A DNA stretch of 64,000 nucleotides. Origin: Occultella kanbiaonis. GTDB lineage: Bacteria; Actinomycetota; Actinomycetes; Actinomycetales; Beutenbergiaceae. Under the pieces are notes generated by a model. That model saw only the letters and a list, made by a program, of their open reading frames with translations. It was not told the DNA's origin and made no database searches. The position numbers and the translations under genes were made by a program. The DNA lies in assembly GCF_009708215.1 (NCBI RefSeq), contig NZ_CP046175.1, forward strand, positions 4,774,001-4,838,000, given 5' to 3'. This document shows positions 1 to 3,137 of this stretch, piece by piece (the first letter of the stretch is position 1; every line of letters starts with the position of its first letter).

Positions 1-245
1 GCGGAGAGCCGGTGGGCGTACTCCACGGCCGCGACCGGGTCGTGCACCGAGCACGGGCCCACCACCGCGAGCAGGCGGTCGTCGCGGCCGGCGAGGATGT
101 CCTGGGTGTGCGCGCGGGAGCGGGCCACGAGGTCCGCCGCCGCGTCCGGCAGCGGCTGCTCGGCGAGCACCTCGCTCGGGGTCGGCAGCGGCTCCATGCG
201 CAGCACGCGCAGATCGCTGGTGCGTTCGCTCTGGATGGGATTCAT
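1..245 (-). CDS. aroG: 3-deoxy-7-phosphoheptulonate (DAHP) synthase, class I, N-terminal part only
   Basis: DAHP synthase joins phosphoenolpyruvate and erythrose 4-phosphate, the first step of the shikimate pathway. Only the first 81 residues are in the window; the rest lies beyond base 1. The protein starts MNPIQSERTSDLRVLRM and contains VVGPCSVHDPVAAVEYA, the conserved class I (AroF/G/H-type) segment. The ATG at 245 was chosen because the conserved N-terminal segment follows it; the nearest purine-rich stretch upstream, GGAAGG, is rather far at about 12 bases. The 117 bases upstream hold hairpins, and before them a short leader ORF with Tyr-Trp-Phe codons, so expression is probably controlled by aromatic amino acid supply. 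Which of the three paralogue names applies cannot be decided. Confidence 0.85.
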   Translation of the reverse strand, partial: MNPIQSERTSDLRVLRMEPLPTPSEVLAEQPLPDAAADLVARSRAHTQDILAGRDDRLLAVVGPCSVHDPVAAVEYAHRLS

Positions 246-312
246 CTTCAACGGTGTCCTTCCGGTCCGGGCGGATCACCCCAGGTCCCGGAGCGCCCGC
301 CTCAATGGCGAA

Positions 313-394
313 GGGCGCGGACCCCAAATGGTCCACGCCCTGTGTCGGCTCCGGTTGCGCGTCAGTGACTGAGCGCGACGGCCGGGGCCGACAC
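313..394 (-). promoter_or_regulatory. Putative attenuator hairpins between leader peptide and DAHP synthase
   Basis: Two structures can be drawn on the minus strand. GTGTCGGC (394-387), which starts 3 bases after the Phe codon of the leader peptide, is fully complementary to GCCGACAC (349-342). Downstream, 340-330 and 323-313 form an 11-bp stem with one G-T pair and a 6-base loop. A ribosome halted on the Tyr-Trp-Phe codons would cover the first arm and free the second. No U-tract follows the second hairpin, so control might act on translation or by a factor-dependent stop. The pairings are visible; the mechanism is inferred. Confidence 0.55.
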
Positions 395-424
395 GCTAAA
401 CCAATACTGCTGTGCGCAACGCAT
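362..424 (-). CDS. Aromatic amino acid leader peptide (20 aa)
   Basis: A 20-codon ORF opens with ATG at 424 and ends with TGA at 362. It starts MRCAQQYWFSV; the Tyr, Trp and Phe codons are adjacent at 406-398. One codon for each of the three end products of the pathway that DAHP synthase opens is a strong sign of a ribosome-mediated attenuation leader. No Shine-Dalgarno sequence precedes it. Instead TATCCT lies six bases upstream of the ATG, which would give a leaderless transcript. A 20-codon ORF can occur by chance, but the residue choice, position and following hairpins argue against this. Confidence 0.65.
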   Translation of the reverse strand: MRCAQQYWFSVSAPAVALSH

Positions 425-430
425 GAGGTG

Positions 431-436
431 AGGATA
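431..436 (-). promoter_or_regulatory. -10 box of the leader peptide/DAHP synthase transcript
   Basis: On the minus strand TATCCT (436-431) fits the actinobacterial -10 pattern TANNNT and sits six bases before the leader ATG, so transcription would begin at or next to the start codon. No convincing -35 box was seen. Confidence 0.45.
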
Positions 437-449
437 CACACCCGGCGAG

Positions 450-484
450 GCTGCGCCGTCGGGCGTCTCACCCGACGGCGCAGC
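450..484 (-). terminator. Hairpin terminator of the ABC import operon
   Basis: A perfect 14-bp GC-rich stem (450-463 with 471-484) with a 7-base loop begins just after the FAD oxidoreductase stop codon. No T-run follows, as is common in high-GC actinobacteria. It separates this operon from the DAHP synthase promoter. Confidence 0.65.
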
Positions 485-489
485 GCGGG

Positions 490-2091
490 TCAGAAGGCCG
501 GACCGGTCCGCCGGATGTCGTCCGGCCAGGCCGTGGTCACCCCGAGCGTGCCCTGCAACAGATCCTGGTAGTCGCCCCGGCTGGTGGCGTCGGCATGCAC
601 CTTGCGGGGGGCCACGCCCCGGTCCAGGCAGAACGCCACGAGCGCACCGACCGCCTCCCCGATCGACCACTCGACCGGGTGCAGGCGGTAGCAGCCGTTC
701 GTGATGTGCGTGGTGCCGATGTTCTTGCAGGCCGGCAGCAGGTTGTCGACCCGGACCGGCAGGAGGGCACCGAGCGGGATCTGGAACGGGAAGCAGGCGA
801 TGTCCACATAGGTGCGCCCGGCGGTCGAGGGGTGCAGGTCGATCCGGTACTGGCCGATACCCACGGCGTCGTCGAACACCTCGGATCCCGCGCCCACCCC
901 GCGAGCCTTGACGCCCACGTGCTGCTCCAGGACCGTGAACTCGGCCTCGATCCGGCGCGACTCGCGGATGTAGGCGGCCTTGGCCAGTCCGTCCGCGGTG
1001 CCGGTCACGTCGGGGCGCAGCCGCAGGCCCGGGTAGCCGGTGCCACCGTCCTCGCGTGGCGCGTCGGTCTGCATCCAGTACAGGAAGGACAGCGACAGCT
1101 CCCGGCTGGCCGCGAGGGCCTGCTCCTTCTCGGCTTCGCCGACGCCGAGGAGCGGCGCATCCCAGTAGTCGATCTGCGGCCAGTTCACCGTGGAGATGTC
1201 ACGCAGGCCCGAGGCCGGGTCGAACTGCTCGGCGGCCAGGATCCGGCGGTAGCGCCACAGGTCGAACGGGACGCCGTCCGTCGGCTCGGACATGAAGATC
1301 GGCCGGTCCCGACGGGCCAGGAAGACGGGCTCCACGTCCACCCAGGACAGCTGCGGTCCGGGCCAGAAGTCGTCCACCTTCGTGGCCCAGTGGTGGTAGG
1401 ACGCGGGGCGGTCGATCGTGTGGTCCTCCCCGGGCCGGTGCTCGAGCGCGAAGCACCAGGAGACCGCCTGCTGATCGAGTGGATCCGCCTCCTCGGGCGC
1501 ATGGAGTTCGCCGGTGCGCTGACGAGACTCGGCGCCGATGACGTGTTCCACCCCGCCGAGCTCGAGCAGGTCCCCGAGTTCGGTGGCATCGACCACGAAG
1601 TCCGCGGTGACGGTCACCTCGTCGCCGGTGCGCTGATCGCGCAGCGTCACCGCGTCGATGAGGTCGCCGCCCGCGTGGACCGCCGTCGGGACGTGCTCCC
1701 GCAGCACCTCGATCGCTCCCGAGGCGCACCACGGAGCCAGCATCTCCTCGATGGCGGCCACCGCGACCCTGGGCTCGTGGCACAGCCGGGACACCTTGCC
1801 GAGCCCCGGGTTGAGCGCGGGGTCCTCGGCCGCGTCCGGTAGCAGCGGGTAGTTGCGCCGGTAGTAGTCACGGATCCGGCGCCGGAGCTCGGCGTAGCTC
1901 GGGGAGACGAGTTCGGACTCGATCCAGGCGTGCTCGTCGGGTGGCACGAGCTGGGCGGTCAGCTGCCCACCGAGCCAGTCGGTCTCCTCGGTGAGGACCA
2001 CCCGCCGGCCCAGCTTGGCCGCGGTGAGCGCCGCGGCGACCCCGCCGAGCCCGCCCCCGACCACGAGGACCTCGGTTCGTCGTTCCGTCAT
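490..2091 (-). CDS. FAD-dependent oxidoreductase (FAD_oxidored family)
   Basis: The protein has 533 residues. The N-terminal VLVVGGGLGGVAAALTAA is a dinucleotide-binding GxGxxG fold, followed by TDWLGGQLTAQ, a signature typical of the FAD_oxidored family (Pfam PF12831). The ATG at 2091 was chosen over an upstream in-frame start because GGAAGG precedes it and it overlaps the LacI gene stop by four bases (ATGA). It is the last gene of the seven-gene import operon. Members of this family often accompany carbohydrate uptake genes and are assumed to oxidise sugars or related alcohols; the substrate here is unknown. Confidence 0.8.
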   Translation of the reverse strand: MTERRTEVLVVGGGLGGVAAALTAAKLGRRVVLTEETDWLGGQLTAQLVPPDEHAWIESELVSPSYAELRRRIRDYYRRNYPLLPDAAEDPALNPGLGKVSRLCHEPRVAVAAIEEMLAPWCASGAIEVLREHVPTAVHAGGDLIDAVTLRDQRTGDEVTVTADFVVDATELGDLLELGGVEHVIGAESRQRTGELHAPEEADPLDQQAVSWCFALEHRPGEDHTIDRPASYHHWATKVDDFWPGPQLSWVDVEPVFLARRDRPIFMSEPTDGVPFDLWRYRRILAAEQFDPASGLRDISTVNWPQIDYWDAPLLGVGEAEKEQALAASRELSLSFLYWMQTDAPREDGGTGYPGLRLRPDVTGTADGLAKAAYIRESRRIEAEFTVLEQHVGVKARGVGAGSEVFDDAVGIGQYRIDLHPSTAGRTYVDIACFPFQIPLGALLPVRVDNLLPACKNIGTTHITNGCYRLHPVEWSIGEAVGALVAFCLDRGVAPRKVHADATSRGDYQDLLQGTLGVTTAWPDDIRRTGPAF

Positions 2092-3137
2092 TGATGTGCC
2101 TTCCGTTGTTTCGCATGGGTGATGGTGCTGCCGGGCGCCACGGAGCACGGCACCCAGGTCTGCTTCGGGCCGGTGTCGGGTTCCTCGACGAGCTCGATCA
2201 GCTGGTCCACGGCCCGGCGGCCGAGTTCGAGCCGAGGGATCACGAGGCAGTCCCAGGCCACCGCCGAGTCCGGTGCGCGGGTCTCGAGCACCGCGATGGA
2301 GACGTCCGCGGGCACGGTCAGGCCGCGGGCGGCGAGCGCGGCAGCCATCTGCTCGGCGAGCGACACGCTCTCCGCCACCACCGCCGTCGAGCCGCTGCGC
2401 AGCAGCTCCTCGACCGAGTCGTCATCGAAGCCCGATCGGCCCGCCGCGCCCGGCGAGTCGTCCCGCAGGCCCAGGTCCGCGAGCGCGGCCTGGTAGCCGG
2501 CCCGCCGGTCCTGGTAGGGCTCGTTGTCGTTCGGGTCCCGCAGGTAGGTGAACGTGCCGTGGCCGAGACCGGCCAGCTGGGCGACCACCTCGGCCGACGC
2601 GGTGCGATAGTCCGGGATGACGCACGAGATCTCGACCCCGGGCACGTCCCGCCGGCCGACGTGCACGAACGGGTAGCCGTCGCCGCTGAGGCGGGCCAGC
2701 TCGTGCGGATCGGACGCGACACCGAGCAGGATGCTGCCGTCCGCCATGCCGAGCCGGTTCATGCCCGAGTTGTAGACGGTGCCCGTCCCACTGCGGCCGG
2801 TGGCCGAGGTGAACAGGACCAGGTCGTTGCCGGTGGCCTCGGCCCGCTCCTCGATGCCGAGCAGGAAGTCCAGGTAGAACCCGTCCCTTGCCCACTGGAA
2901 CAGCGGCTCGAACGCGTGCACCCCCAGCAGCGAGTTGCGCCGCCCGCGCAGGCTCCGGGCCGCCGGGTTCGGGACGTAGCCGAGTTCCCGCACCGCGGCC
3001 CGGATCCGCTCCGCCGTGACCGGGGGGATCCGGGTGAGGTCCCCGCTCACCACCCGGGACACCGCCGACTGTGAGACACCCGCCAGCCGCGCCACGTCCG
3101 ACTGGCGCACCGGCCGGTCCCGGCGCGCCGTCGTCAT
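2088..3137 (-). CDS. LacI-family transcriptional regulator
   Basis: The protein has 349 residues. The N-terminal helix-turn-helix reads RQSDVARLAGVSQSAVSRVV, followed by the hinge region (GYVPNPAARSLRGRR) and a periplasmic-binding-protein-like sensor domain. ATG at 3137 is fixed by a 4-base ATGA overlap with the ATPase gene before it, and its own stop overlaps the oxidoreductase start in the same way. A LacI repressor inside a sugar-type uptake operon suggests that the operon responds to a sugar or glycoside and represses itself. Being downstream in its own operon rather than divergent is somewhat unusual. Confidence 0.88.
   Translation of the reverse strand: MTTARRDRPVRQSDVARLAGVSQSAVSRVVSGDLTRIPPVTAERIRAAVRELGYVPNPAARSLRGRRNSLLGVHAFEPLFQWARDGFYLDFLLGIEERAEATGNDLVLFTSATGRSGTGTVYNSGMNRLGMADGSILLGVASDPHELARLSGDGYPFVHVGRRDVPGVEISCVIPDYRTASAEVVAQLAGLGHGTFTYLRDPNDNEPYQDRRAGYQAALADLGLRDDSPGAAGRSGFDDDSVEELLRSGSTAVVAESVSLAEQMAAALAARGLTVPADVSIAVLETRAPDSAVAWDCLVIPRLELGRRAVDQLIELVEEPDTGPKQTWVPCSVAPGSTITHAKQRKAHQ

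Follow-up and report, generated by a model that had tools for sequence, protein, structure and literature searches.

A probable leaderless attenuator with Tyr, Trp, and Phe codons before class-I DAHP synthase genes of actinobacteria

The minus strand at the start of the window, as we call the whole 64,000-nucleotide stretch of the Occultella kanbiaonis genome that was analysed (NZ_CP046175.1, positions 4,774,001 to 4,838,000), carries the 5' part of a class-I DAHP synthase (DAHPS) gene (PF00793, positions 1..251, running past the window edge). All features described below lie on this strand and are numbered by window position. The start of the gene is ambiguous, because TTG at 251-249 is better spaced than ATG at 245-243 from the likely Shine-Dalgarno (SD) sequence, GGAAGGA at 257..263, which was recognized in the sequence and picked by duplex score. 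Upstream, at 362..424 (read 424-362), lies a leader ORF of 20 codons plus a stop, whose translation is MRCAQQYWFSVSAPAVALSH and whose aromatic cluster is conserved; by sequence, codons 7-9, TAT TGG TTT (398..406), specify Tyr-Trp-Phe and are the putative regulatory codons. A prior sequence-only reading had described just such an ORF with adjacent Tyr, Trp, and Phe codons, and we find it there. The same reading placed it 116 bases before the DAHPS gene, a figure that holds from the ORF stop to ATG 245-243 and is otherwise subject to the ambiguity of the gene start. A -10 box, TATCCT (431..436), sits 6 nt ahead of the leader ATG. The gene farther upstream, which ends at 490 and which we take from its sequence to be oxidoreductase-like, is followed by an inverted repeat, GCTGCGCCGTCGGG..CCCGACGGCGCAGC (484-450), located between that gene and the leader promoter and probably serving as the gene's terminator.

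Several complementary stretches occupy the leader and the region behind it. The P1 5' arm, GTGTCGGCCCCGG (382..394), lies within the ORF just 3' of the aromatic codons, and the middle strand, CCGGAGCCGACAC (342..354), lies 3' of the stop. P1 comprises the eight perfect pairs noticed earlier from the sequence, GTGTCGGC (394-387) with GCCGACAC (349-342), extended by one C.A mismatch and then four more pairs (CCGG 385-382 with CCGG 354-351). Next comes a hairpin, H2 (312..341), with arms AGGGCGTGGACC..GGTCCGCGCCCT, followed by TTCGCCATT; it had been read as an 11-bp hairpin, a count we correct to 12 possible pairs, one of them G.U. Behind H2, the third segment GCTCCGG (288..294) offers CCGGAGC of the middle strand an alternative partner, in a pairing designated Palt. 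The third segment also belongs to the 5' arm of a moderately supported hairpin, P3 (266..305), whose 3' end stops 2 nt before the SD. The predicted fold of 424-240 has an energy of -91.9 kcal/mol (z -3.1), and none of 200 shuffled versions folds as well. Searches of the window with Rfam 15 (positions 1-3000) found no family match up to E 1, and consensus promoter and terminator scans of positions 1-2500 found nothing, including no T-rich terminator. NCBIfam had no match for six leaders and Pfam none for four of five; an InaF motif in the window's own leader was sub-threshold in Pfam (E 0.1) and was discounted.

The sequence-only reading had proposed looking among relatives for conserved YWF codons and for compensatory stem changes; the comparison found conservation of the aromatic codons and compensatory changes alike. 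We collected 189 regions upstream of class-I DAHPS genes, comprising 80 named loci and 109 from the window's family, order, and class; some 40 of these loci are not actinobacterial, and there are a few near-duplicates. A short ORF in which at least three of five codons encode Phe, Tyr, or Trp was present in 134 of 189 regions in the sense direction, versus 21 of 189 antisense and a mean of 14.9 of 189 in dinucleotide shuffles, where the 134 include some chance hits (as in the family designated f4) and miss some atypical leaders below the threshold (L115, L121, L126, and L139). From the 189 we grouped by hand a curated set of 97 loci, all with a detected aromatic cluster (83 of the H2 type and 14 of a Rhodococcus/Pseudonocardia type, with L098 excluded), which reduce to 90 distinct leaders once identical leader regions are removed. 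Among these 90 actinobacterial leaders, selected as they are for the cluster, 77 contain Tyr, Trp, and Phe together, 11 Tyr and Phe, and two Tyr and Trp; a Trp codon is thus found in 79, and all 11 Tyr-plus-Phe leaders belong to a single family, f35. The peptide retains QYWF or RYWF in the window's genus, WYWF or WYWRF in genus g8, and FYW in genus g2. Mycobacteria have AYWRF or GYWRF, Dietzia and Gordonia AYWRF, Arthrobacter WYAYF, Streptomyces sp. 150FB WYWRY, and Rhodococcus and Amycolatopsis YFWF. In a further set from family f21, 20 loci hand-picked from 218 genomes with a match and judged at a looser threshold of two in five, all 20 have a leaderless aromatic leader.

Within the 189 regions, an aromatic leader was not found at Nocardiopsis-type loci, at family f32 class-I genes, or at part of the non-actinobacterial loci. 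Family f4, probably Bifidobacteriaceae, carries two class-I DAHPS genes in each of the nine genomes that gave a match, and shows no such leader in its class-I upstream regions; the loci without one, from named Bifidobacteriaceae and family f4 together, are L018-L020, L028, L106-L108, L112, L116-L118, L148-L152, and L155-L160.

The leaderless transcript suggested by the sequence-only reading receives strong comparative backing, although as a prediction from promoter spacing. All 90 distinct leaders have the motif TANNNT with its end 6-8 nt ahead of an in-frame start, while the same procedure applied elsewhere in the same sequences succeeds in 62 of 28,260 sense and 194 of 36,450 antisense trials (0.2-0.5%). 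A simpler control on single antisense starts gave 19 of 1655, but is unmatched because one leader may offer several starts. With its -10 box ending 6 nt before the ATG, the window's leader mRNA is predicted to be leaderless and to start at A424. Passages of PMC8079986 report leaderless leader peptides in Streptomyces lividans.

P1 and H2 were evaluated in alignment A2, whose 30 sequences were hand-chosen for diversity. Across both helices 93.5% of cells are paired, versus 81.1% after shuffling of partners and 36.6-50.0% after sliding, and 93 cells have two-sided changes versus 27.9 in shuffles. By its count of further pair types, the same alignment does not stand out (29 versus 26.8, a value reached by 58 of 500 shuffles). 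Two-sided changes occur at five P1 pairs and at eight of ten H2 pairs, and 98.6% of H2 cells are paired. In a cross-family duplex test, with family labels assigned by hand from search tables and record titles and H2 set by hand for L083, L084, L032, L174, and L181, the sequence's own P1 arms beat the median mismatched combination in all 49 representatives, and in 22 of them they outdo 95% of mismatches. RNAalifold recovers P1 and H2 unprompted, plus a short third helix behind H2, and leaves the codon columns unpaired in the consensus fold. P1 starts close behind the aromatic codons in the 30 aligned sequences. By this comparison of sequences, P1 and H2 are supported by covariation.

Palt was tested by RNAduplex energy first and by longest perfect helix afterwards. 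By energy, seven of 49 representatives pass at 0.05, with a mean of -1.6 kcal/mol, and the comparison with shuffles gives 15 of 49. The longest perfect helix averages 6.44 nt for matched strands, 5.43 nt across families, and 4.76 nt for shuffled strands, with 16 of 54 significant against shuffles. Two mis-segmented loci, L096 and L098, are counted in both tests and in that of the P1 arms. Clear cases are TCAGAGCC/GGCTCTGA in Arthrobacter, TCGACACCCGG in Dietzia, ACGAGCCGGC in Micromonospora thermarum, and TCGAGCCGGC in family f47, while none of five Mycobacterium-type leaders shows the pairing. The window's own CCGGAGC/GCTCCGG has a shuffle fraction of 0.04, and in 12 sequences from genera g1 and g8 the GCTCCG of the third segment is invariant, with the last G kept in 11 of 12. 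We regard the Palt pairing as moderately supported. For P3, the cross-family test gave a mean of -2.1 kcal/mol.

The effect of a stalled ribosome was modeled in 38 hand-chosen diverse sequences by holding nucleotides single-stranded to 12 past the last aromatic codon, and by counting as Palt any pair that the middle strand makes with the 70 nt following H2. On average the expected number of P1 pairs drops from 9.1 to 3.4, a loss partly forced by the mask itself, and that of Palt pairs rises from 3.2 to 8.5. Palt is predicted to rise on stalling in 32 of the 38; in the window's leader, P1 goes from 14.6 to 3.4 and Palt from 0.1 to 7.0. In 11 of the 38, the middle strand is predicted to pair more with the region behind H2 than in P1 even before the mask is applied. 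H2 keeps the same number of expected pairs across states (10.9, 11.0, and 10.9), and classical control of an H2 terminator is therefore not explained by the model. As folded in this way, the sensor and the strand swap are coherent for the window, and H2 behaves as a fixture. Two hallmarks of an attenuator are recognizable here, namely a short ORF, presumably translated, with codons for the products of the pathway, and mutually exclusive pairings of which a stalled ribosome would block one (P1 being strongly and Palt moderately supported).

The sequence-only reading had called DAHPS the first enzyme of the shared pathway; the gene is indeed a class-I DAHPS, but it is not the sole first enzyme because the genome also has a class-II DAHPS, at G000:C1:3021796. 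In the window's family 24 genomes were searched; each has a class-II DAHPS, and 17 have the class-I gene as well. A leader was seen before none of the 23 class-II genes read in that family, a control that omits L214 and L215, both fragments of a single class-II gene. A covariance model, R1, matches all 17 class-I upstream regions of the family sample with E no greater than 1.7e-12, seven of them belonging to its training set. In the order sample it matches in 25 of 34 genomes with a class-I gene, at least eight of which contributed to training, and the nine misses all fall in the two-copy family f4. At gathering score, Rfam matches in 13 relatives amounted to two tRNAs only.

R1 also finds copies at other genes. 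In the genome of the window a second copy stands out clearly (E 5.8e-9; locus L226, G000:C1:1104278-1104441, minus strand), before a second tyrosyl-tRNA synthetase gene (TIGR00234), here tyrS2; another TyrRS-like gene lies at C1:2231893. Within the family sample the second synthetase is restricted to the window's own genus, where tyrS2 with a leaderless leader MLxRRVYPN.., containing a single Tyr codon, occurs in four of four members; R1 itself detects the copy in three of these four. In one genus member both P1 arms of the tyrS2 copy have changed together, from CTCTGG/CCAGAG to CTCCGG/CCGGAG. Eight genomes of family f32 (L237-L244) have R1 copies before a gene encoding a DAHPS/chorismate-mutase fusion. 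The two of eight products that were scanned each join a chorismate mutase to a partial DAHPS domain, and the other six were judged by their similar N-termini. By eye, the leaders of all eight fusion loci contain Phe or Phe plus Tyr codons but lack Trp, which fits the Phe/Tyr branch. The next long ORF after the fusion looks, at several loci, like dnaE.

Taken with the comparisons above, the locus is best read as a leaderless, ribosome-gated attenuator of DAHPS, of the aroR kind and keyed to the aromatic codons, a reading to which we give a probability of roughly 0.85. Transcription would begin at the leader ATG, and for that reason a ribosome is proposed to load at once. While charged Tyr, Trp, and Phe tRNAs are plentiful, the ribosome would traverse the leader and free the P1 5' arm, which would pair with the middle strand, and the DAHPS gene would be held low. 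On shortage of any of the three, the ribosome would stall at TAT-TGG-TTT and mask the P1 5' arm; the middle strand would then pair with the third segment across H2 as Palt, and DAHPS expression would go up. Sequence comparison supports the leader, its codons, the leaderless-spaced -10 box, P1, and H2, and it supports Palt in part. Stalling, the response to each amino acid, and the direction of control we infer from this architecture; a separate response to each of Tyr, Trp, and Phe is likely, judging by the codons.

How the swap would act on the gene admits several explanations, none of which we hold above even odds. That H2 is a regulated transcription terminator, made effective by P1 or by the absence of a stalled ribosome, seems to us a serious proposal falling slightly short of an even chance. 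H2 resembles native terminator hairpins of relatives: all ten weak R1 hits read in relatives have a GACC..GGTC core, nine of ten carry a CTTCGTC/CTTCGCC tail, and four of ten lie directly behind a tRNA gene, where terminators belong. Yet these look-alikes were found through the model, so the resemblance has been selected for; the stem of most of them includes the tail (GACGAAGG..CCTTCGTC), which is not so in H2, and the hairpin behind the window's only tRNA lacks the tail. The ten hits, from the order and family samples, are terminator-like hairpins and were rejected as new elements; hits in G233, G226, and G263, an antisense hit in G252, and hits with E above 0.01 were left out of this reading. 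Real U-tracts do follow H2 in several lineages (L015, L032, and L143), and it is transcription that is reported to change at the Corynebacterium glutamicum aroF operon (in passages of PMC11802643), but the predicted stability of H2 is the same with and without a stalled ribosome, and no antiterminator breaking H2 was found. Control of translation instead, with P1 letting the third segment form P3 and hinder initiation and Palt breaking P3, we consider unlikely, though with more than a token claim. P3 includes the third segment, ends 2 nt before the SD, and beats the median mismatch in 37 of 46 representatives; it exceeds 95% of mismatches in six of them and shuffles in 16. The stalled state is predicted to open the ribosome site in the Arthrobacter type (family mean -3.4 kcal/mol; seven of nine by more than 0.5), and to make opening harder, by +1.1 kcal/mol, in the window's own genus.

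General forms of SD control were tried and rejected. The opening energy of the ribosome site changes on stalling by a mean of -0.18 kcal/mol, with 24 of 72 loci easier and 25 harder (p 0.72); the SD is unpaired at 0.42 in the stalled versus 0.39 in the free state, up in 17 and down in 14 of 82; and sequestration of the SD by the strand behind H2 (5.31 versus 4.88 nt, two of 42 significant) was dropped. L096 and L098 were excluded from the tests of SD accessibility, SD sequestration, P3, and opening energy, and L007 and L132, with wrong starts, from those of sequestration and opening energy. A different objection would treat the leader as a constitutive leaderless ORF that merely loads ribosomes, as an antenna or for reinitiation, with its aromatic codons incidental. 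In its favor, leaderless short ORFs occur commonly among actinobacteria. Reinitiation at leader genes has, moreover, been proposed before (in passages of PMC4833913). The aromatic codons are nevertheless kept while the rest of the N-terminal part varies, codon content shifts with the target gene (tyrS2 and the chorismate-mutase fusions), and the start of P1 near the codons in the 30 aligned sequences also speaks against incidental codons; we regard this account as very improbable.

Our literature search, which covered few subscription papers, listed no paper on a Tyr-Trp-Phe leader before DAHPS; Neshat 2014 and Lopatovskaya 2010 may describe part of what is reported here, and Neshat et al. (2014) are said to have treated the aroR attenuator of aroF in C. 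glutamicum. According to portions of a review, PMC11802643, aroR before aroF has a Phe-Tyr-Phe leader, and transcription rises on Phe limitation while Tyr is without effect; aroR is also treated in parts of PMC4046766. The likeness, to aroR as known from such partial description, consists of a short aromatic leader before a class-I DAHPS gene and a proposed stalling of the ribosome. The window's leader has Tyr-Trp-Phe codons where aroR has Phe-Tyr-Phe, and so represents a variant of the aroR kind rather than aroR itself. Three RFYF loci of the small-genome genus g160 in family f21, two of them WRFYF, match R1 (64.7, 31.3, and 22.5 bits), and the Phe-Tyr-Phe type therefore probably belongs to the same RNA family. 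Compared with the known aroR attenuator, the present element has a wider distribution and is apparently three-way.

Attenuators of the trpL/pheL type, including that of actinobacterial trp as portrayed in parts of PMC1262725, likewise place regulatory codons in a short ORF and employ mutually exclusive pairings. Unlike them, the leader here combines three different amino acids in one cassette, and its switch encloses a stable terminator-like hairpin that separates the middle strand from its second partner. The LEU element before actinobacterial leuA, in the same portions of PMC1262725, also joins an actinobacterial leader peptide to a conserved RNA with an unclear output step. Its codon run is said there to pair with the SD box, whereas here the codon columns are unpaired in the consensus fold, and a test of the SD region against the segment that follows H2 gave no support for pairing.

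The occurrence of related arrangements in many actinobacteria suggests, as far as sequences can indicate, that one switch reads all three products. A three-codon leader at the first enzyme of the shared pathway would let translation sum three shortages, and the cassette before DAHPS would, if the reading is true, be an OR gate for three end products. A broader proposition, which we rate at about even odds, is that of a portable family of actinobacterial RNA switches, in which a leaderless leader ORF with an exchangeable codon cassette would control a strand swap between P1 and a distal segment, with a fixed terminator-like hairpin between them, and in which the cassette would follow the gene: Tyr-Trp-Phe for DAHPS, Phe/Tyr for DAHPS/chorismate-mutase fusions, and Tyr for tyrS2. 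If true, it would supply natural codon-swap experiments and a new family of the Rfam type. The element is spread across the class and matches no Rfam family, and its relatives with other codons stand before other aromatic genes, so the idea that codons set the input and RNA sets the output can be tested on natural variants. These results bear on a gap stated in parts of a 2005 survey (PMC1262725), the RNA regulation of phenylalanine and tyrosine operons in Actinobacteria, before which those parts report no conserved RNA structure in 20 genomes. The switch may be of use in engineering producers of aromatic amino acids.

Two further kinds of leader were observed. Leaders of the Rhodococcus/Pseudonocardia/Amycolatopsis type, YFWFSRPAPGG, have another layout (L022, L026, L029, L034, L045, L058, and more), in which, by eye, a CGAGCCGG..CCGGCTCG hairpin shares bases with the pairing behind the codons and would therefore be mutually exclusive with it. 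In several proteobacteria, DAHPS genes also follow short ORFs rich in Phe, Tyr, and Trp, such as FYFWYY in Xanthomonas and FWYF in Bradyrhizobium (L046, L050, L054, L055, L059, L060, L062, L066, L067, L069, L070, L073, L074, and L075). A hairpin with a real T-run stands behind the short ORF at L046, L054, L059, and L074, and the proteobacterial arrangement looks like classical attenuation. When R1 was run on L046, L054, and L073, L073 alone matched, weakly (E 0.046).
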